Assembly: GCA_002746975.1 (NCBI GenBank)
Contig: NVXE01000009.1
Location: 22,297-85,490 of the forward strand
DNA from: Bacteroidota bacterium
Lineage (GTDB): Bacteria > Bacteroidota > Bacteroidia > Flavobacteriales_D > Sanyastnellaceae
Length of the DNA: 63,194 nt
Reading direction: 5' to 3'
Every line of letters starts with the position of its first letter. Within the stretch, counting starts at the first letter, position 1. A program made the translations under genes and the position numbers. Of this stretch, positions 24,671 through 33,508 are shown piece after piece. The notes beneath the pieces were generated by a model. That model did no database searches. It saw nothing but the letters and a program-made list of their open reading frames with translations, and was not told the origin of the DNA.

Positions 24671-25288
24671 GTGCAACAACTCCCATCGAGACTGATAGAA
24701 GCCGCTGTAGATCAAATTTCTACTTTACCTGGAATAGGGCGCAGAACCGCATTACGCCTAGTATTAAACTTGCTAAGGCGTGATAAAGAGCGGGTGCGTT
24801 CTCTCGCAGAATCCCTAATTGCGATGAGCGAGGGAGTTCAACCTTGTGATTTGTGTTTTAACCTAACGGAAGAAGGTACGTGCTCGATTTGTGCTACACC
24901 TGAGAGGAGTAAGAACACTATTTGTGTTGTTGAGGATATTAGAGATCTTCTAGCAATTGAAAACGTCGGAAATTTTAGGGGAGTTTATCACGTTTTAGGA
25001 GGAATTATAAGTCCCATGGACGGTATAGGGCCGTCAGATTTAAATATTGAAGCACTGTTTTCTAGAATTAATGAACTTAAATCAACCGATTTTTCTGAAG
25101 TTATTTTTGCACTCCCGGCTACTATGGAAGGGGACACAACGTCTTTCTACTTATTTAAAAAGCTTTCTTTGTTTGACATTAAAGTGACCACATTAGCTAG
25201 AGGTGTTGCTGTAGGAGAGTCATTGCAGCATGCAGATGAAGCAACCCTTGCACGTTCTATGGACAACAGAACTATTTACGAAGCCTAG
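24671..25288 (+). CDS. recR: Recombination protein RecR
   Basis: A 205-residue recombination mediator that works with RecO/RecF in loading RecA at gaps. The helix-hairpin-helix LPGIGRRTALRLVLNLL is at about 18-34. The zinc finger CDLC...CSIC is at about 57-75, and a Toprim domain starts at about 82 with CVVEDIRDLLAIE. Length is normal. The start is GTG 24671, decided by the -7-like box. It leads a rightward run, with a glycosyltransferase three bases downstream. Confidence 0.97.
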   Translation: MQQLPSRLIEAAVDQISTLPGIGRRTALRLVLNLLRRDKERVRSLAESLIAMSEGVQPCDLCFNLTEEGTCSICATPERSKNTICVVEDIRDLLAIENVGNFRGVYHVLGGIISPMDGIGPSDLNIEALFSRINELKSTDFSEVIFALPATMEGDTTSFYLFKKLSLFDIKVTTLARGVAVGESLQHADEATLARSMDNRTIYEA

Positions 25289-25291
25289 AGT

Positions 25292-27196
25292 ATGAAGCTG
25301 TCGATAATAATAGTAAGTTACAATGTTGAGGCATTCTTAACTCAATGCCTTATCTCTGTTTATAGAGCCATTTCTCACCTTTCAGATGAAACCTCATTGT
25401 CTGGTTCAGATGTAGAAGTATTCGTTGTCGACAATATTTCTGTTGATGGGACGTGTAAGATGGTTGAAGAAAGGTTTCCTTCAGTTAAGTTGATTAAAAA
25501 CCAAGATAATGTAGGCTTCTCTAGAGCAAATAACCAAGCGATTAGAGTTTCAAAAGGAGAGTATATTCTTCTTCTAAACCCAGACACCGTAGTTCAAGAA
25601 GACACCTTTTTAGAGTGTATTAATTATGCTGATAAAAACCCTAAACTAGGAGGTTTAGGGGTGCCTATGTTTGATGGTTCTGGTACATACTTACCTGAGA
25701 GTAAAAGGGGTATTCCTACACCTTGGGCTTCATTTTGTAGAATATCTGGAATTTTTCGTTTGGCCTCAAAAACGAAAAAACTTAATAGCTACTATGCAGG
25801 GCATTTAAGTCCAAATGAAAATCATCAGATTGAGGTGTTGAGTGGTGCTTTTATGTGGATGAGGAAAAGTACACTTGATGCGGTAGGGTTACTTGATGAG
25901 GATTTCTTCATGTATGGCGAAGACATAGACCTTAGCTGGAGAATAATCAAAGGTGGATGGGAAAATCATTATTTAGCTGGTACGAGGATAATTCATTATA
26001 AAGGTGAAAGCACGAAGAAGGGGAGTTTAAATTACGTCAGTATTTTCTATAAGGCGATGTTGATTTTCGCGGCGAAACATTTTGAGGGAGGGCAAGCGAC
26101 TATATATAATTTTATTATTAGAATCGCAATTTATGCTAGAGCAGGAATATCAATTATTCGTCGACTTGTGTCTAGAGCTTGTTGGCCATTTATTGAAGGT
26201 GCAGCACTTTACCTAGGACTTTTCGCACTGTTAAACTTTTACGCAGATTTCACTGGAATTGATTACAATTGGAATCAAGCTCAAAACGCATTCGGTATCT
26301 ATTCAGCTTTTTGGCTATTTGTTTTATGGCTTTTCGGAGGATATGATAAACCTTGGATTCCAAGGAGAGTAATGCAAGGAATTGTAGTTGGATCATTAGT
26401 TTTAATAGCAGGATATGGACTTCTTCCTGAAGAACTTAGATTTTCACGAGCAATACTTCTTTTAGGTGCACTGTGGTTTGCGACAGTAGTTGTTTTGGGC
26501 AGAATAACCTTTGGAGGATGGCGTTTAGGTGCCAAACCTACTTCTCGATTAATCGTGTCAGGAGATTCGGACGCAATAGAAATAAAGAAACTACTTCAAG
26601 CTATTGAATCTTTCGATGAGAGAACTGAAGCTACTACTGTTATCAGTGTAGAAGAGATAAGTACTATTGAAGATGTGGTGAGGGTTCATAGAATAGGAGA
26701 GGTGGTATTTAGCGGGCGTGATGTAAGGGCGACGGATATAATTACGGCTCTTTCTAATTTAGCAGGAAGAACTGTAGTTTGTCGAATTGCCTGGACTGAT
26801 GACGGTTCAGTCATGGGAGCAGGAGGCCCAGGTCCAGATCCAGTAACTGAGCTCGACCGTGCTATTTACGGGCCTTCAGCACGACGTACGAAACGACTAT
26901 TCGACATAATGTCATCGCTCGTACTACTATTATCGACACCGATACTTATAATTACCGGTCGCTCCAAATGGATTTCTCTATCCCTTCGTGTTATTACAGG
27001 CAAAGCGACTTGGGTGGGGTTTGATATTCCTCCTTCAAAAAACGAAGTAAAACATCGCCCTTCTATTATTAAACCCTTTGATACTGACGACGATAGAGTC
27101 CAAGAGAGATTGAATCTTGCTTATGCTCGAAAATACAATTGGTTCGAAGATATGAAGCTTGTCCTGCAAGCATTACTTTTGCAATCTGTAAACTGA
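25292..27196 (+). CDS. GT2 glycosyltransferase fused to a degenerate sugar-phosphate transferase
   Basis: A 634-residue membrane protein. Residues 1-240 form a family-2 glycosyltransferase (SIIIVSYNVEAF, VVDNISVDGT, LLLNPDTVV, and the MYGEDIDLSWRI acceptor motif). About 295-410 hold four hydrophobic helices, and about 415-510 a soluble Rossmann-like part. About 525-634 resembles a bacterial polyprenyl-phosphate glycosyl-1-phosphate transferase: RTKRLFDIMSSLVLLLSTPI matches its membrane hairpin, and ARKYNWFEDMKLVLQALL its C-terminal tail. The catalytic middle (usual KFRSM and Asp-Glu region) is missing, so phosphosugar transfer is unlikely. The protein may make envelope glycans. It lies between recR and an E2 gene in one run. 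Confidence 0.82.
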   Translation: MKLSIIIVSYNVEAFLTQCLISVYRAISHLSDETSLSGSDVEVFVVDNISVDGTCKMVEERFPSVKLIKNQDNVGFSRANNQAIRVSKGEYILLLNPDTVVQEDTFLECINYADKNPKLGGLGVPMFDGSGTYLPESKRGIPTPWASFCRISGIFRLASKTKKLNSYYAGHLSPNENHQIEVLSGAFMWMRKSTLDAVGLLDEDFFMYGEDIDLSWRIIKGGWENHYLAGTRIIHYKGESTKKGSLNYVSIFYKAMLIFAAKHFEGGQATIYNFIIRIAIYARAGISIIRRLVSRACWPFIEGAALYLGLFALLNFYADFTGIDYNWNQAQNAFGIYSAFWLFVLWLFGGYDKPWIPRRVMQGIVVGSLVLIAGYGLLPEELRFSRAILLLGALWFATVVVLGRITFGGWRLGAKPTSRLIVSGDSDAIEIKKLLQAIESFDERTEATTVISVEEISTIEDVVRVHRIGEVVFSGRDVRATDIITALSNLAGRTVVCRIAWTDDGSVMGAGGPGPDPVTELDRAIYGPSARRTKRLFDIMSSLVLLLSTPILIITGRSKWISLSLRVITGKATWVGFDIPPSKNEVKHRPSIIKPFDTDDDRVQERLNLAYARKYNWFEDMKLVLQALLLQSVN

Positions 27197-27200
27197 TTAC

Positions 27201-28547
27201 ATGGCAATCATAGATATCCTACTCCCAAAAATGGGCGAAAGTGTGGCGGAGGCCACAATTATTAAGCTATTAGTCGATGCTGGATCAAGTGTTGAAGCTG
27301 ACGAAGCTGTTGTAGAAATTGCAACAGACAAGGTAGATAGTGAGGTTCCTGCGCCAGAAGATGGCGTCCTAGTTGAGTGGTTAATCGCTGAAGGTGATGT
27401 AATCCAAGTAGGTGAACCCATCGCCAGATATGAAATAGGAGGTAGTGATAGTAATCACATGAAAACTGCTGCTCCTCAATCAGCATCTACGCCTGCTCCT
27501 CCTCAATCTAACTCAACAAACGCTCCTTCTCCTGAAGTCGTTGAGGCAGTTTCTGCTCCTTTAGCCTCTTTAGAAAACCAAAAGCTGTCTAAGTCTGGTT
27601 CATCGGGTAGATTTTACTCACCTTTAGTCAGAAGCATTGCTGAGGAAGAGGGAGTAAGTATGGCAGAATTAGAATCTATTCCTGGATCAGGGTCTGAGGG
27701 TAGAGTTACGAAAAAAGACATCCTGGGGTTCATTTCAACGGGACGAAAAACAGTCTCTGCACCTAAAGTTGTAACTCATGATGTAGCTACATCATCGAAT
27801 GATAGACATCCCGCGTTTAAATCTGTATCTGGTGGATATGAGATAGTAGAAATGGACAGGATGCGAAAGCTTATAGCTAAGCATATGTTAGACTCGGTTT
27901 CGACATCTCCTCATGTAACTTCTTTTGTTGAGGCTGATGTTACGAGTTTGGTGCTTTGGAGAAATAAAAATAAGAATGCCTTCCTAGATAAATTTGGAGA
28001 AAAACTCACTTTTACTCCTTTAATTGCTGAAGCAATAATTAAAGCTATAGGTGATTTTCCGGGTGTAAATGCAAGTGTAGATGGCGATAATGTGGTAATA
28101 CATAAGGGCATACATTTGGGTATGGCTGCTGCTTTGCCTAGTGGAAACTTGATAGTTCCTGTTATTAAGGATGCAAATTCTTACAATCTCCAAGGGCTGG
28201 CTCGTAAAGTGAACGACCTTGCGCTAAGAGCTCGACAAGGAAAACTAGAAGCAGATGATATTTCTGGTGGAACCTATACGATGTCTAATGTTGGTACTTT
28301 CGGAAATGTAATGGGAACGCCGATTATTAATCAACCTCAAGTCGGAATATTAGCTTTAGGGGCGATACGTAAAAAGCCGGCAGTTATTGAAACCCCTGAG
28401 GGTGATGTAATAGCAATTCGGCACATGATGTTTTTATCACATAGCTATGATCATAGAGTAGTCGATGGTAAGCTTGGAGGCAGTTTTGTAAAGAGAGTTG
28501 CAGAATATCTAGAGGCATTTTCGTTAGAAAGACCACTCGAAGGTTAA
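27201..28547 (+). CDS. 2-oxo acid dehydrogenase E2 (dihydrolipoyl acyltransferase)
   Basis: A 448-residue E2 core. An N-terminal lipoyl domain carries the modified Lys44 in ATDKVDSEV. A Pro/Ala/Ser linker (about 90-125) follows, then a peripheral-subunit-binding domain (SPLVRSIAEEEGVSMAELE, about 134-170). The catalytic domain ends with the HxxxDG motif SYDHRVVDGK near residue 420. It probably serves a branched-chain 2-oxo acid or pyruvate dehydrogenase complex; which one cannot be told, because no E1 or E3 gene is nearby. It begins four bases after the glycosyltransferase gene. Confidence 0.93.
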   Translation: MAIIDILLPKMGESVAEATIIKLLVDAGSSVEADEAVVEIATDKVDSEVPAPEDGVLVEWLIAEGDVIQVGEPIARYEIGGSDSNHMKTAAPQSASTPAPPQSNSTNAPSPEVVEAVSAPLASLENQKLSKSGSSGRFYSPLVRSIAEEEGVSMAELESIPGSGSEGRVTKKDILGFISTGRKTVSAPKVVTHDVATSSNDRHPAFKSVSGGYEIVEMDRMRKLIAKHMLDSVSTSPHVTSFVEADVTSLVLWRNKNKNAFLDKFGEKLTFTPLIAEAIIKAIGDFPGVNASVDGDNVVIHKGIHLGMAAALPSGNLIVPVIKDANSYNLQGLARKVNDLALRARQGKLEADDISGGTYTMSNVGTFGNVMGTPIINQPQVGILALGAIRKKPAVIETPEGDVIAIRHMMFLSHSYDHRVVDGKLGGSFVKRVAEYLEAFSLERPLEG

Positions 28548-28608
28548 TTAAGACTATTCACTTACAACTTTTGCGTATTTCAATTGCTGGAATACCTACC
28601 TTGTGTAC

Positions 28609-30696
28609 ATGAAGAAGCGTGCAAACATCTACTTATTTGTTCTTATTCTAATACTCTTTTCTACTAACAAGAGTATAGCCCAAACCTCTTCAAATAAACG
28701 GCATACACTTTCTCAATCAGACAGAAGCATATTTGATCAAGCATCAATTTTATCTGAAGAAGGAATTTACCATGAATCATCACGTCTTTGGGCAAAGCTA
28801 GTAGAGACATACCCTTTATGTGGTAACTATAAATTCTACTACGGTGTGTCTATTTTATACGCTGGCGAACCGCTGTCTAAAGTTGAGTCAGCTTTTGCTA
28901 ATTCTATATTTGACTCTGGAACTTTAATAACAGGGTCAGGAAAGTATAATGAGGATTTATGTACTGCTCCAATTGACGTTTTGGTTTACTATGCAGAAGT
29001 GAAAAGCCTGTTATATAAATTTGACGAGGCTCTAGATTTACTCAATCAATTTAAAGATAAGGCTGACAAATACAACCCGATTCACTATAAAGCGGATCAA
29101 TTATTTAAGAGTATAAATATTGCAAAAGCTCTAATGTCTAAACCTATAGATGTTACAATCACTAATTTAGGAGAAAAAGTAAACACAGAATATGACGAAA
29201 CCCATCCTTGTATAAGAGCAGATGAATATCAAATGTTTTTTACATCTAATAGACCTAGATCAAACGGTTCTAATCATGGCACATTTGATCCTAACTCTAA
29301 ACAACACTACGGGGATATTTATGTTTCAGACAGGGATTCATCATGGGGGGATGCAGAATGGGTGAATCTAGGATTGTCCAAGCATAAAAATGCAATATCA
29401 GTATCTCCTTTCGGATCAAAGCTTTTTATTTCACATGTGGATGGGTGGGAAACCTTTTCATATACTGCTAATAAGAACAAAGGCAAATGGCAACAAGCAG
29501 TTATTTCAAATAGTCAATACCCTATGCTGTCAGAAGGCTCCACTGTGTTTTCACCTAATAAGGACTTTGCAGTAATGAGTATCAGAGATGTAAAGGGAAA
29601 TACAGGTTATGATTTATATATATTCCATAAGTTATCGGATAATTCTTGGTCTGAGCCTCAAATAATGAGTGAAGTGAACTCTGATTTAGATGAAATTACT
29701 CCATTTATTTCGGCCGATGGAACACTGTTTTTTTCATCTAATGGTCTCGATGGATTAGGAGGTTTTGACTGTTATAAAACAAATTTTATTGACGGGCAAT
29801 GGTGTACTCCAATTAATTTAGGATATCCAATCAATACTGTAGATGATGATGCGCATATTGCGATTTCTGCGGATGGTTCACGTGCTTATATTTCTTCTCG
29901 TAGAAATAGACCAAATGGAGATTACGATTTATTCGAAATTTCATTCACTCCTGAATCTAGGATAGTAAATAATAATATCCTACTATTAAATTTATTGGTG
30001 TTAGAAGATGTTGATAGAGTGCAAATTAAATGCGTTGAGACGGGAGATGTTTATGACGCAGGTGTTGTTGAAGATGGTGATTTATATGTGAGATCTATTC
30101 TTTATGGCGGATTTACATACGAAGTGAGATTCTCACTCAAGGGCGAGGTGATTAAAACCGATGTAATAGAAATAAAGTCCGATGCTGGGTATCATTCATT
30201 AACAGACCCGATTAATTCAGAAGGAGGTTGGATTTCTGGTAATGAAATATTACTCGTTGAAAGGGAAGTGATAACTGAAGAAGTTGAAAATGAAGAATAT
30301 TTAAACAAAGATTCATTAGAATTGACTTCCCTGTTGGGAGAAAAGGAAGAGCTTGATAACTGGGTAGTTTTTTATGAGCTGACCCCTAAGCAAATTCATG
30401 CTGAAAAACTTGATATAGATGAAATCGCAATTGAGGTGATAAGAAGGATTAAACTAGGATTACATCCTAAAGTTTTTATTTCGTCTAGTGCTAAAGAATC
30501 CTCTAACAGATCTCTTTCTCAAACTCATGAATTCTCGGGAAAAAGGTGTGCAAATATTTATCTTAGATTAAAAGCATTGCTTTTAGAAAAAGGATATACT
30601 AATAAGTCAGAATACTCGTTTTTAAATTTTGATATAAAAGAGTCTTCAGGTTTAGAAAATGAAATACCTGATTTTGTGAGAATTGAGATTAAATAA
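28609..30696 (+). CDS. PD40/OmpA-like envelope protein (PorE-like paralogue)
   Basis: A 695-residue secreted protein with a signal peptide ending near SIAQ (residue 25). Residues 35-180 look like TPR-type helices. About 185-450 are PD40 (WD40-like) repeats, with recurring FISADGTLFFSSNGLDGLGG and IAISADGSRAYISSRR. The last 90 residues have the shape of an OmpA domain, but the peptidoglycan-contact Asp of the GHTD motif is absent (SSSAKESSN). The layout matches PorE-like proteins and the paralogue at 46.7-48.7 kb. An upstream GTG at 28603 is in frame; I chose ATG 28609. This gene is more A/T-rich than its neighbours. Confidence 0.8.
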   Translation: MKKRANIYLFVLILILFSTNKSIAQTSSNKRHTLSQSDRSIFDQASILSEEGIYHESSRLWAKLVETYPLCGNYKFYYGVSILYAGEPLSKVESAFANSIFDSGTLITGSGKYNEDLCTAPIDVLVYYAEVKSLLYKFDEALDLLNQFKDKADKYNPIHYKADQLFKSINIAKALMSKPIDVTITNLGEKVNTEYDETHPCIRADEYQMFFTSNRPRSNGSNHGTFDPNSKQHYGDIYVSDRDSSWGDAEWVNLGLSKHKNAISVSPFGSKLFISHVDGWETFSYTANKNKGKWQQAVISNSQYPMLSEGSTVFSPNKDFAVMSIRDVKGNTGYDLYIFHKLSDNSWSEPQIMSEVNSDLDEITPFISADGTLFFSSNGLDGLGGFDCYKTNFIDGQWCTPINLGYPINTVDDDAHIAISADGSRAYISSRRNRPNGDYDLFEISFTPESRIVNNNILLLNLLVLEDVDRVQIKCVETGDVYDAGVVEDGDLYVRSILYGGFTYEVRFSLKGEVIKTDVIEIKSDAGYHSLTDPINSEGGWISGNEILLVEREVITEEVENEEYLNKDSLELTSLLGEKEELDNWVVFYELTPKQIHAEKLDIDEIAIEVIRRIKLGLHPKVFISSSAKESSNRSLSQTHEFSGKRCANIYLRLKALLLEKGYTNKSEYSFLNFDIKESSGLENEIPDFVRIEIK

Positions 30697-30717: not shown

Positions 30718-31566
30718 ATGGGACTTGAAGAAGGATTAAAAAAACTGAAGCTTAAAAAACCACTTGTCGTCTTCGATTTAGAGACCACAGGAGTTCAAGT
30801 AGGAACAGATAGAATCGTAGAAATCGCAATGATCAAGGTCTCTCCTGACGGTTCTGTTGTTCGAAAGCCAGAAAAAGCAGGGAAGGAACACCGAATACTT
30901 GTAAATCCAGAAATGGCTATCCCTTTAGAGTCGTCATTAGTTCACGGTGTTTACGATGAGGATGTTAAGCAAAAACACACTTTCGGTGAAATAGCACCTG
31001 GGCTTGTGAAATTTTTAGATGGTTGCGATCTAGGGGGTTTTAATTCTAATCGATTCGATGTGCCAATGTTGGCAGAGGAATTTTTAAGAGTAGGAGTAGA
31101 CTTCGGGTTAGAGGGAAGGAATCTTATAGATGTCCAGAATATTTTTCATAAAATGGAACAGCGCACTTTAAAAGCAGCCTACAAATTTTACTGCGATAAA
31201 GAGCTAGAAGGTGCCCATGAGGCATATCCAGATACTGCTGCGACGTTAGAGATTTTGGTTTCTCAACTAGAAAAATACGAGAACACATCAATTAGTGATA
31301 GCAGAGGTGAGCAAGTAGGTCCAGTCCCTGCGGATATGGATGAACTTCATAAGTTTTGCCAACGTACTAATAATGTTGATCTTGCAGGAAGGCTGATATA
31401 TGATGATGATGGAGTTATTATTTTTAATTTCGGAAAACATAAGGGTGTTTCTGCAGTTGAACTATTAAAGAAGGATCCTGGATATTTCGGCTGGATGATG
31501 AAGGGAGATTTTCCACGCTACACAAAACGTGTCTTAGAACAAATTAAAGATGGAACTTTAAAGTGA
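30718..31566 (+). CDS. DnaQ-like 3'-5' exonuclease
   Basis: A 282-residue DEDDh exonuclease. Motif I is VFDLETTG (about 18-25), motif II is FNSNRFDVPMLAEEF (about 110-124) and motif III has His-Ala...Asp in HEAYPDTAATLE (about 170-181). The C-terminal block FNFGKHKGVSAVELL...GYFGWMMKGDFP matches the small domain found at the end of exonuclease X-like proteins. It probably has a DNA or RNA trimming role. I prefer ATG 30718 to TTG 30700, which has no support. It overlaps the next gene by four bases (GTGA). Confidence 0.9.
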   Translation: MGLEEGLKKLKLKKPLVVFDLETTGVQVGTDRIVEIAMIKVSPDGSVVRKPEKAGKEHRILVNPEMAIPLESSLVHGVYDEDVKQKHTFGEIAPGLVKFLDGCDLGGFNSNRFDVPMLAEEFLRVGVDFGLEGRNLIDVQNIFHKMEQRTLKAAYKFYCDKELEGAHEAYPDTAATLEILVSQLEKYENTSISDSRGEQVGPVPADMDELHKFCQRTNNVDLAGRLIYDDDGVIIFNFGKHKGVSAVELLKKDPGYFGWMMKGDFPRYTKRVLEQIKDGTLK

Positions 31567-32708
31567 GTAGTAAAGTGACTAGTGAAAAGCGAGTTGCTGT
31601 TCTTGTATCTAATGACCTTACGTTCGACCAACGTGTTAGGAAGACATGTGAAGTAATGATAGAGTCGGGGTATATTCCAACTCTTGTAGGGCGTGAGATG
31701 CCAGACTCACAACGATACACTGGCCCATTTAAAGCAATACGATTCACTCTAAAAAAAAATAGGGGTCCTTTATTTTATTTAGAACTTCAACGGACATTAT
31801 ATAAATGGCTTAAAACGGCTGAGGTAGATGTGATTTGGGCAAATGACCTAGATACGCTTCTTCCTGCGATACTCATAGGTCGTAGAAGAGGAATACACGT
31901 AGTATATGACTCTCATGAGTTTTTTACTGAAGCAGCAGGTTTGTCAGGTAGGCCGTTTAGGCGTTTTGTTTGGCTTATGATTGAGAGGTATTGTGTACCA
32001 AAGCTTAATAGAATGCTCACCGTTAATGAATCTATAGCAGGTAAATATCGAGAGAGATATGGAGTCAAAGTAGATGTCTTGAGAAATATGCCGATTCTGA
32101 AAGAAGTCCCTGAAAAATATTCCCTCCTTAGAGAACCATTCGCTAAATATGGAATTCCATTAGATTTACCAATTTTGCTTCTTCAGGGGGCGTATATGGA
32201 TAAAGATAGAGGAGCAAAGGACGCTGTTGAAGCGTTAGAGGTCATGTCTGATGTCAGGCTTGTTCTTGTGGGTAGTGGTGTTGAGTGGGAGGAGTCTCGA
32301 GAAAGGTTGAATAATCCTAAGTGGAAGGGACGATTACATTGCATACCAAAACTCCCATACGATGAATTGCGGAAATTGACAGCAGCGGCTGATGTAGGTC
32401 TTTCACTAGATAAGGGCTTACATCCTAACTACCTTTTAAGTCTTCCGAATAAGTTGTTTGATTTTATTCATGTAGGACTACCTATTGTAGCAAGCCCTAT
32501 GGTAGAAGTTAGTAAAATCGTTGAAGAAAGTGGAGTAGGGGTAGTTATTAGTGAGGTAACCTCGACGAAAATTGCATCAGGAGTAAGCGAAATTTTATCG
32601 CAACCTAGAGAGTTTTGGTATGAAAAATGTATGAAAGCAAGGGAAGACTATCACTGGGGAGTTGATTCACACCTTATCAACGAAAATTTAGCTGAAGCTT
32701 CGAAATAA
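31563..32708 (+). CDS. GT4-type glycosyltransferase
   Basis: A 381-residue GT-B fold glycosyltransferase. The N-terminal half has the family-typical VLVSNDLTFDQRVRKTCEVM and YDSHEFFTEAAGLSG. The C-terminal half has the nucleotide-sugar region LSLPNKLFDFIHVGLPIVAS. Function is probably in surface glycan synthesis; donor and acceptor are unknown. The start is GTG at 31563, overlapping the exonuclease stop by four bases. It ends the rightward run that began with recR. Confidence 0.88.
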   Translation: MSSKVTSEKRVAVLVSNDLTFDQRVRKTCEVMIESGYIPTLVGREMPDSQRYTGPFKAIRFTLKKNRGPLFYLELQRTLYKWLKTAEVDVIWANDLDTLLPAILIGRRRGIHVVYDSHEFFTEAAGLSGRPFRRFVWLMIERYCVPKLNRMLTVNESIAGKYRERYGVKVDVLRNMPILKEVPEKYSLLREPFAKYGIPLDLPILLLQGAYMDKDRGAKDAVEALEVMSDVRLVLVGSGVEWEESRERLNNPKWKGRLHCIPKLPYDELRKLTAAADVGLSLDKGLHPNYLLSLPNKLFDFIHVGLPIVASPMVEVSKIVEESGVGVVISEVTSTKIASGVSEILSQPREFWYEKCMKAREDYHWGVDSHLINENLAEASK

Positions 32709-32725: not shown

Positions 32726-33508
32726 TTATGCGATTTTCTTGGAACACCACTTCAGCCTAGTCCAAATTCCCTGAATAATATCACTCCATAAGGAGTTAAA
32801 TACTTCGTGTTTCAGCTCTCTTTCCTCTTTATAAAGTGATTTGTTAAATTGTCGACTTACTCCTCCTGGGCAAACTCTTGCAAGCACTTCGTTTTTACAA
32901 TCACAAATAAGTCCGTTTTTCCATAACTTTAGGTGAAAGTGATAATCTGCGAGCACCTTATACCTTAGGTCAAATGGACTAATACTCCCTAGGTTATTTT
33001 TAAATAATGCCCTTGAATAAATTACCCCTTGATGATGTATAGTATTCTTCCACTTTATTTCAGGCCCCCATGTAGGCGAGTAAAATTCTGGCACACCGGA
33101 CTCTCTAGGAGGAAGTAGATGAACTCCAAAAGCAGCTAATTTCGTATGAGTATTATGTTTGTTTTTTAAAAATACATTTAATAGATCCATCCAATTTTCA
33201 GATGGTAAATCCCCAGTTCCCATAAACCAAACCCATTTCCCTTTTGCGATTCTAACTCCCTTGTTCATAGCGTCATAAATACCAGCATCTTTTTCTATGA
33301 TAGCTTTAGATATCAGATTCTCATTTTCGTTAATCCATTGTTCGCTACCATCAGAAGACTTCCCATCAATAACTATAATTTCGAAATCAAAATATGAAGA
33401 AGTTCTTTTTTGTTTTTTAAACGACAATATGGTCTTTTTCAGTCCTCCAAGTTGATTGAAGGATGGTATAATAATACTCAGGATAGGTAAGTTTGAAATT
33501 GAAGGCAT
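32726..33508 (-). CDS. GT2 glycosyltransferase
   Basis: A 260-residue GT-A fold family-2 glycosyltransferase, similar to those of surface-polysaccharide loci. LSIIIPSFNQLGGLKKTILS is at about 10-29, and the metal-binding region EIIVIDGKSSDGS is followed by DAGIYDAMNKGVRIAKGKWV. The end of the domain is well formed and no membrane segments are visible. It is the last gene of the leftward run M16-like, ftsE, GT2, starting 14 bases after ftsE. Confidence 0.88.
   Translation of the reverse strand: MPSISNLPILSIIIPSFNQLGGLKKTILSFKKQKRTSSYFDFEIIVIDGKSSDGSEQWINENENLISKAIIEKDAGIYDAMNKGVRIAKGKWVWFMGTGDLPSENWMDLLNVFLKNKHNTHTKLAAFGVHLLPPRESGVPEFYSPTWGPEIKWKNTIHHQGVIYSRALFKNNLGSISPFDLRYKVLADYHFHLKLWKNGLICDCKNEVLARVCPGGVSRQFNKSLYKEERELKHEVFNSLWSDIIQGIWTRLKWCSKKIA

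Follow-up and report, generated by a model that had tools for sequence, protein, structure and literature searches.

What is the C-terminal half of a predicted family 2 glycosyltransferase (GT2) derived from, and what might it still do? The question is raised by the 634-aa open reading frame (ORF) with an ATG start at 25,292–27,196 (+) in the ORF list of the window, the window being the whole stretch of 63,194 nucleotides that was analysed. The original prediction took its product for a GT2 domain fused to a phosphoglycosyl transferase (PGT) without a catalytic core, the hairpin and tail of which, in the last 110 residues, would act as a membrane anchor or as an acceptor-lipid site. The fusion itself was borne out by profile matches to WbaP and PglC, by Foldseek and by VIA-align: the gene, present as a single copy in its own genome, encodes a GT2 joined to what by homology is a catalytically dead large PGT.

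The GT2 catalytic domain covers residues 1–245 (25,292–26,026, +). It matched PF00535 with 78.6 bits against a cut-off of 23.3, which places the protein in the GT2 family, and GT2 enzymes were the only proteins among the best 50 Foldseek matches of the full-length model. No Pfam family other than GT2-type ones, and hence no CoA_binding_3 (PF13727), was detected in the window protein up to E 1, and none of the named GT2 models of NCBIfam reached its curated cut-off. Residues D47, D52, D98, E210, D211, D213 and H235 were invariant in all 61 aligned members; the six acidic ones are presumably the metal-binding and catalytic residues of GT2 enzymes. Because of this invariance the GT2 part looks active, with sugar transfer predicted from the intact motifs. 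The fold and motifs are shared with GT2 enzymes of the rhamnosyltransferase, TarS and PglI types, which, unlike the window protein, are not known to carry a PGT half.

The homology of the second half to PGTs emerged from several profile comparisons. TIGR03025, the NCBIfam model of large PGTs, matched residues 310–554 (E 1.2e-8, below its curated cut-off), indicating that the PGT homology begins far ahead of the final 110 residues, and the last 115 residues scanned alone matched the Pfam family Bac_transf at E 0.25, below the cut-off. When profile A2, built from 60 C-terminal halves, was compared with the PDB, the seven top matches comprised WbaP chains (E 2.7e-9 to 4.9e-8) and PglC chains (E 0.0019 and 0.0033); nothing else fell under E 0.01, and the next matches were unrelated proteins at E 0.7. 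Profile A4, built from 29 members of greater divergence, aligned with WbaP 8t53 at E 5e-33; this alignment is collinear over profile positions 17–386 and is interrupted by a single large gap, about 64 residues long, in which the KFRSM segment falls. The same profile matched PglC at E 2.6e-16. Both CoA_binding_3 and Bac_transf exceeded the Pfam cut-offs in the three divergent relatives scanned (L184, L188 and L116), Bac_transf being aligned only from profile position 94–97 of 179 onward. Moreover, residues 23–466 of the intact PGT encoded elsewhere in the same genome aligned in one piece with the profile of the dead domain. By these alignments, the whole second half is derived from a large WbaP-type PGT. 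The PGT origin proposed for the last 110 residues is correct, and their being the limit of the remnant is rejected by TIGR03025 and A4, since the homology spans approximately residues 280–634 (about 355 residues) and includes a four-helix transmembrane (TM) bundle and a cytosolic DUF.

Specifically, four long helices (residues 267–407; 26,090–26,512, +) match the TM bundle of WbaP in the AlphaFold model, the TIGR03025 match and the 8t53 profile alignment. They are followed by a Rossmann-like DUF (residues 417–500; 26,540–26,791, +), recognized in the AlphaFold model and by VIA-align and as CoA_binding_3 in the relatives. After the segment aligned with the WbaP hairpin come the PGT-type re-entrant membrane helix (residues 528–554; 26,873–26,953, +; alignment and AlphaFold) and, beyond a deletion junction, a remnant of the PGT C-terminus (residues 559–634; 26,966–27,193, +; alignment, A2 and A4), in which GKATWVGF resembles GDMSLVGPRP and YARKYNWFEDMKLVL resembles the PGT tail helix. 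The same order of TM bundle, DUF, re-entrant helix and tail occurs in the large monotopic PGTs (WbaP, WcaJ and EpsZ; TIGR03025, PF13727 plus PF02397), and the TM bundle and CoA_binding_3 DUF that precede their PGT domain are present here by homology. Unlike these enzymes, the window protein lacks the catalytic core and the Asp-Glu dyad, and its PGT part sits behind a GT2 domain. WbaP is both the best structural and the best profile match of the dead half.

The full-length AlphaFold model (mean pLDDT 85.8, pTM 0.78) shows the helices and the Rossmann-like DUF, and the C-terminal half was also modelled alone (mean pLDDT 86.2, pTM 0.76). WbaP 8t53 was the sole Foldseek match of this half with E < 0.001 (E 1.9e-6), with low TM-scores of 0.27–0.29. 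VIA-align likewise ranked WbaP first (Z 10.2, 291 residues, rmsd 12.5), with a margin of only about 1 over unrelated Rossmann folds (9.0); PglC was middling (Z 7.1, rank 27), aligned to model residues 249–357, which correspond to residues 526–634 or so of the window protein. The low TM-scores and the large rmsd indicate that the relative arrangement of the domains is different or incorrect. The structural comparison that had been proposed as a check does relate the C-terminus to PGTs; the case for homology is carried by the sequence profiles rather than by structure scores.

The segment at residues 501–523 (26,792–26,860, +) aligned with the beta-hairpin of WbaP (AlphaFold and 8t53 alignment), which is described in PMC10942596 as Asn251–Gln268 swapped between the two chains of a dimer; this hairpin was matched to the segment with a numbering offset of 52, by our own count. 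An IIGSN-type motif lies here in 47 of 61 full-length members. It is absent from the window protein (VMGAGG...), and residues 511–523 have pLDDT values < 50 in its model.

At the deletion junction (residues 554–560; 26,951–26,971, +), defined by the alignments, by Pfam in the relatives and by A4, about 50–65 residues of the PGT core (GPVF..., KFRSM) are gone and the dyad positions are replaced. In the intact PGT of the same genome, the dead profile leaves a stretch of about 49 residues (GPVF to KFRTM) unmatched, and Asp376-Glu377 face N-R. KFRSM-like or DExPQ-like patterns were absent from all 50 fetched loci, including the window's own copy. At the alignment positions of the dyad, as given by the genome's own intact PGT, Glu was found in 0 of 98 sequences, Asp in 2 and both in 0, the alignment being unsure there for the Bacteroidia set. 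The two features expected of a large PGT at this place, KFRSM and the catalytic dyad, are therefore missing, as had been foreseen, and by alignment one internal deletion took out this region. Because the dyad is lost, transfer of a phosphosugar to Und-P by the dead half is expected to be absent. Several members outside the window's class retain about 35 extra residues between hairpin and remnant, indicating that decay has gone further in the window's class. Intact GT2-PGT fusions were considered as intermediates and rejected: none of 20 candidate loci with split matches had the motifs. Several of these members keep about 35 more residues, and N-R or other residues occupy the dyad positions.

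Literature searches did not turn up any earlier report of a dead large PGT joined to a GT2; a mention is possible in the PNAS 2021 network paper, which reportedly defines the class of bifunctional PGTs (Bi-PGTs). Large PGTs, bifunctional PGTs and GT2 enzymes are already known (PMC10942596 and PMC10653937), and Bi-PGTs are described as having a fused domain joined to a monoPGT catalytic domain (PMC10942596). The window protein resembles this class in that a PGT-type domain is fused to another functional domain, and differs from it in that its PGT is dead and lacks the catalytic domain. Since the catalytic core was looked for and is absent, the protein would act as a GT2 and is a member of neither the PGTs nor the Bi-PGTs.

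The fusion belongs to a vertically inherited, conserved family and is a single-copy core gene. At E 1e-60, the family search called for by the original prediction detected it in 77 of the 80 genomes that represent the window's order (66 of 67 of the better genomes), a few of the 77 being fragments at contig ends and one having an internal TAA. The GT2 part was detected at E 1e-50 in 251 of 295 genomes of the window's class, and the open frame measured 640–720 aa for most class copies among the matches listed. Other classes of the phylum also carry the fusion; the phylum search, with matches in 250 of 395 genomes, mixes the family with ordinary PGTs at weak E and gives no family count. Relatives were encoded in at least 574 stretches, and gene neighbourhoods were analysed for the best 80 (81 loci with the window's own). 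The copy with the internal TAA (G656:C3:1450406-1452127) is interrupted near the start of the PGT remnant. In three other loci (L131, L133 and L134), ORFs of 1310, 850 and 816 aa have extra sequence ahead of the GT2 and dead PGT, which might reflect start choice or further fusions.

In the window's class, the gene lies in a housekeeping stretch, flanked upstream by recR (24,671–25,288, +; 42 of 81 loci) and downstream by a 2-oxoacid dehydrogenase E2 gene (27,201–28,547, +; 40 of 81 loci); many of the 81 loci are truncated where their contig stops. No PGT was found near the fusion in class loci at E 1e-20 with a search model built from two sequences. Outside the class, 20 regions were inspected, one per family code, a choice that was not blind, as nearby PGTs had already been seen in some of these genomes. 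The fusion was present in all 20; an intact PGT lay 0.7–2.5 kb away on the same strand in 14, and no PGT was found in the region in the other 6. A GT2 resembling polyprenyl-phosphate-sugar synthases (below the named cut-offs) occurred in 14 of the 20 loci, 12 times within 45 bases, accA in 18, 17 times within 95 bases, and a Wzx-like flippase gene in 6. The company of PGT, synthase-like GT2 and Wzx points to undecaprenyl-linked glycan assembly. As a separate observation, in L169–L188 the fusion nearly always adjoins accA and often genes for a YbgC thioesterase, nadC and the Wzx-like protein, so that fatty-acid and glycan genes form a conserved cluster there. The intact PGT that adjoins the fusion in L172 has 827 aa, about 350 above the usual length, and PGTs of G255, G352, G023 and G166 likewise have long open frames.

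Each of the 80 fusion genomes searched, drawn from the 250 phylum matches, has an intact PGT (best E 3.4e-75 to 1.7e-64), which alone says little because most bacteria with such pathways have one. The window's own genome, 95% complete, has one PF02397 match, an intact PGT of 475–480 aa (L239, G000:C11:178500-198000) among housekeeping genes, which include those for an OmpA family protein, a shikimate kinase and a transaldolase; no other polysaccharide genes were seen near it in the ten ORFs scanned. In a 53-row tree it grouped with 10 of the 11 PGTs adjacent to a fusion (support 100/99, 14 rows). A tree of 77 intact large PGTs, with five genomes lacking a large PGT among the rows dropped, contained a 24-row partner clade (SH-aLRT 95) made of two sister groups, one of 13 rows that includes the adjacent PGTs and one of 11 that includes PGTs of the window's class. 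A clade drawn strictly from the last common ancestor of those adjacent to a fusion comprises the 13 rows, none from the window's class. On these trees, the sole PGT detected in the window's genome is a close sister of the adjacent partner PGTs. The 53-row tree also separated all 21 dead domains from the 32 intact PGTs by a branch supported at 100/100 (unrooted; long branch, 1.28), and the dead-domain profiles scored the adjacent PGTs (11) above non-adjacent ones (20; one-sided p 0.0023 and 0.0098). That the partner PGT gave rise to the dead domain is not claimed, the tree placing neither root nor source.

On balance, we consider it probable, with some reserve, that this core GT2 extends the undecaprenyl-diphosphate-linked sugar (Und-PP-sugar) of the partner PGT, with the dead half as a scaffold for membrane and protein contacts. 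A separate intact large PGT would make the Und-PP-sugar, to which the GT2 domain would add the next, probably the second, sugar. A large PGT would have lost its catalytic core in a common ancestor of the sampled members and been kept as a scaffold that fixes the GT2 to the membrane on its cytosolic side, while DUF and hairpin may contact another protein, either a second copy or the partner PGT. The membrane anchor of the original prediction fits this arrangement. Against it stand the class loci and outside loci that lack a nearby PGT, the missing hairpin motif in the window protein, the low Foldseek TM-scores to WbaP, the strict 13-row clade without class PGTs, and five orthologues without any C-terminal half.

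These five belong to a series of shortened forms surveyed in 31 chosen genomes of the window's class, which contained 16 loci with forms of 371–527 aa and five with forms of about 277–292 aa, i.e. the GT2 domain alone. RecR or E2 lay beside 12 of the 16 mid-length loci and RecR beside all five GT2-alone loci, indicating that the shortened forms are orthologues by position. All three forms of about 520 aa and all 13 of about 371–399 aa end before or near the PGT remnant. Nine of the 16 keep the IIGSN-type motif and end 16–20 residues from its start, and these therefore stop ahead of the remnant; several of the nine share one genus or family code and are not independent. The series suggests that the remnant is the least needed part.

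The partner PGT may vary with the length of the fusion. The 24-row clade contained a PGT of 7/7 full-fusion genomes (own included), 3/10 with mid-length forms, 0/4 with the GT2 alone and 1/6 without the gene; with long-branch sister groups counted, the numbers were 7/7, 8/10, 2/4 and 2/6. The contrast between full and shortened forms gave a Fisher p of 0.001 for the 24-row clade versus 0.25 with the long-branch sisters, the genomes not being independent, and is no more than a hint. In two genomes with mid-length forms (G021 and G025), a PGT lies 3–5 kb from the GT2 gene and falls outside the partner clade. In G115, where the mid-length form (L196) lacks the hairpin motif, the only PGT detected is small, with a 224-aa open frame.

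A tentative, more specific version is that the dead half is a docking pseudoenzyme that would form a mixed dimer with the intact partner PGT through paired DUFs and exchanged hairpins. PGT and GT2 would then work as one unit, passing the Und-PP-sugar between their active sites, and lineages losing the half would have changed their partner PGT too. A precedent for control of a large PGT by a separate protein exists in Myxococcus, where EpsW acts on EpsZ via the DUF and catalytic domain of the latter (PMC12802240); EpsW, however, is a response regulator and neither a PGT relative nor a glycosyltransferase.

The second half could instead be a mere leftover membrane anchor of an old bifunctional PGT-GT enzyme with no specific partner. 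In line with this, its sequence changes more quickly than that of the GT2 domain (mean majority frequency 0.40–0.61 vs 0.75), and it has been trimmed or lost in several lineages. Such a passive role is rather doubtful, however, given that the half is near-whole in the 77 of 80 genomes of the order, that G509 is invariant among the aligned members and K534 and D538 of the re-entrant helix are invariant in 61 of 61, and that the linkage to a PGT outside the class is strong.

Conservation of the same helix, including P550 (at least 90%), would also agree with the acceptor-lipid site of the original prediction, in which the PGT remnant would be a binding site that makes undecaprenyl-linked sugar accessible to the GT2 domain. 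The GxxTWVG stretch is retained in full-length forms, and Y611 and D620 of the remnant are conserved at 90% or more. A lipid-presenting site is nevertheless unlikely as the main role, and less probable than a scaffold, because the shortened orthologues drop the remnant first. Its tail is the least conserved stretch, the core with the phosphate-binding and catalytic groups is missing, and the five GT2-alone orthologues manage with no such half, leaving this part of the original prediction with little support.

By analogy with the WbaP DUF, which binds UMP and uridine sugars according to PMC10942596, the DUF might be a uridine nucleotide sensor that regulates the GT2. It outlasts the remnant in the shortened orthologues, but its positions are poorly conserved (0.44), which makes a sensor improbable. 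That the fusion reflects an error of assembly or gene calling, or a local deletion that arose recently in the window's genome, is ruled out for practical purposes by the identical architecture in many genomes.

Pfam and NCBIfam name the gene as a GT2 only, and this annotation can be corrected in that the second half is, by homology, a fossil PGT and more than a TM region. If the scaffold reading is true, a core gene of a large phylum would mark a lipid-linked glycan pathway in which a pseudoenzyme physically links the first step to the second, and the long-discussed question of PGT-GT complexes would become testable in a natural deletion series (full length, ~520, ~390 and ~280 aa).

Further downstream in the window, a 697-aa PD40 protein is encoded at 28,603–30,696, in a cluster present in 28 of 81 family loci; the CHU_0125 OmpA-like and T9SS PorE models match its residues 137–457 only, far below their cut-offs. 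In addition, a GT4 gene (31,563–32,708) and a second, unrelated GT2 gene (32,726–33,508) lie 4–6 kb downstream of the fusion.
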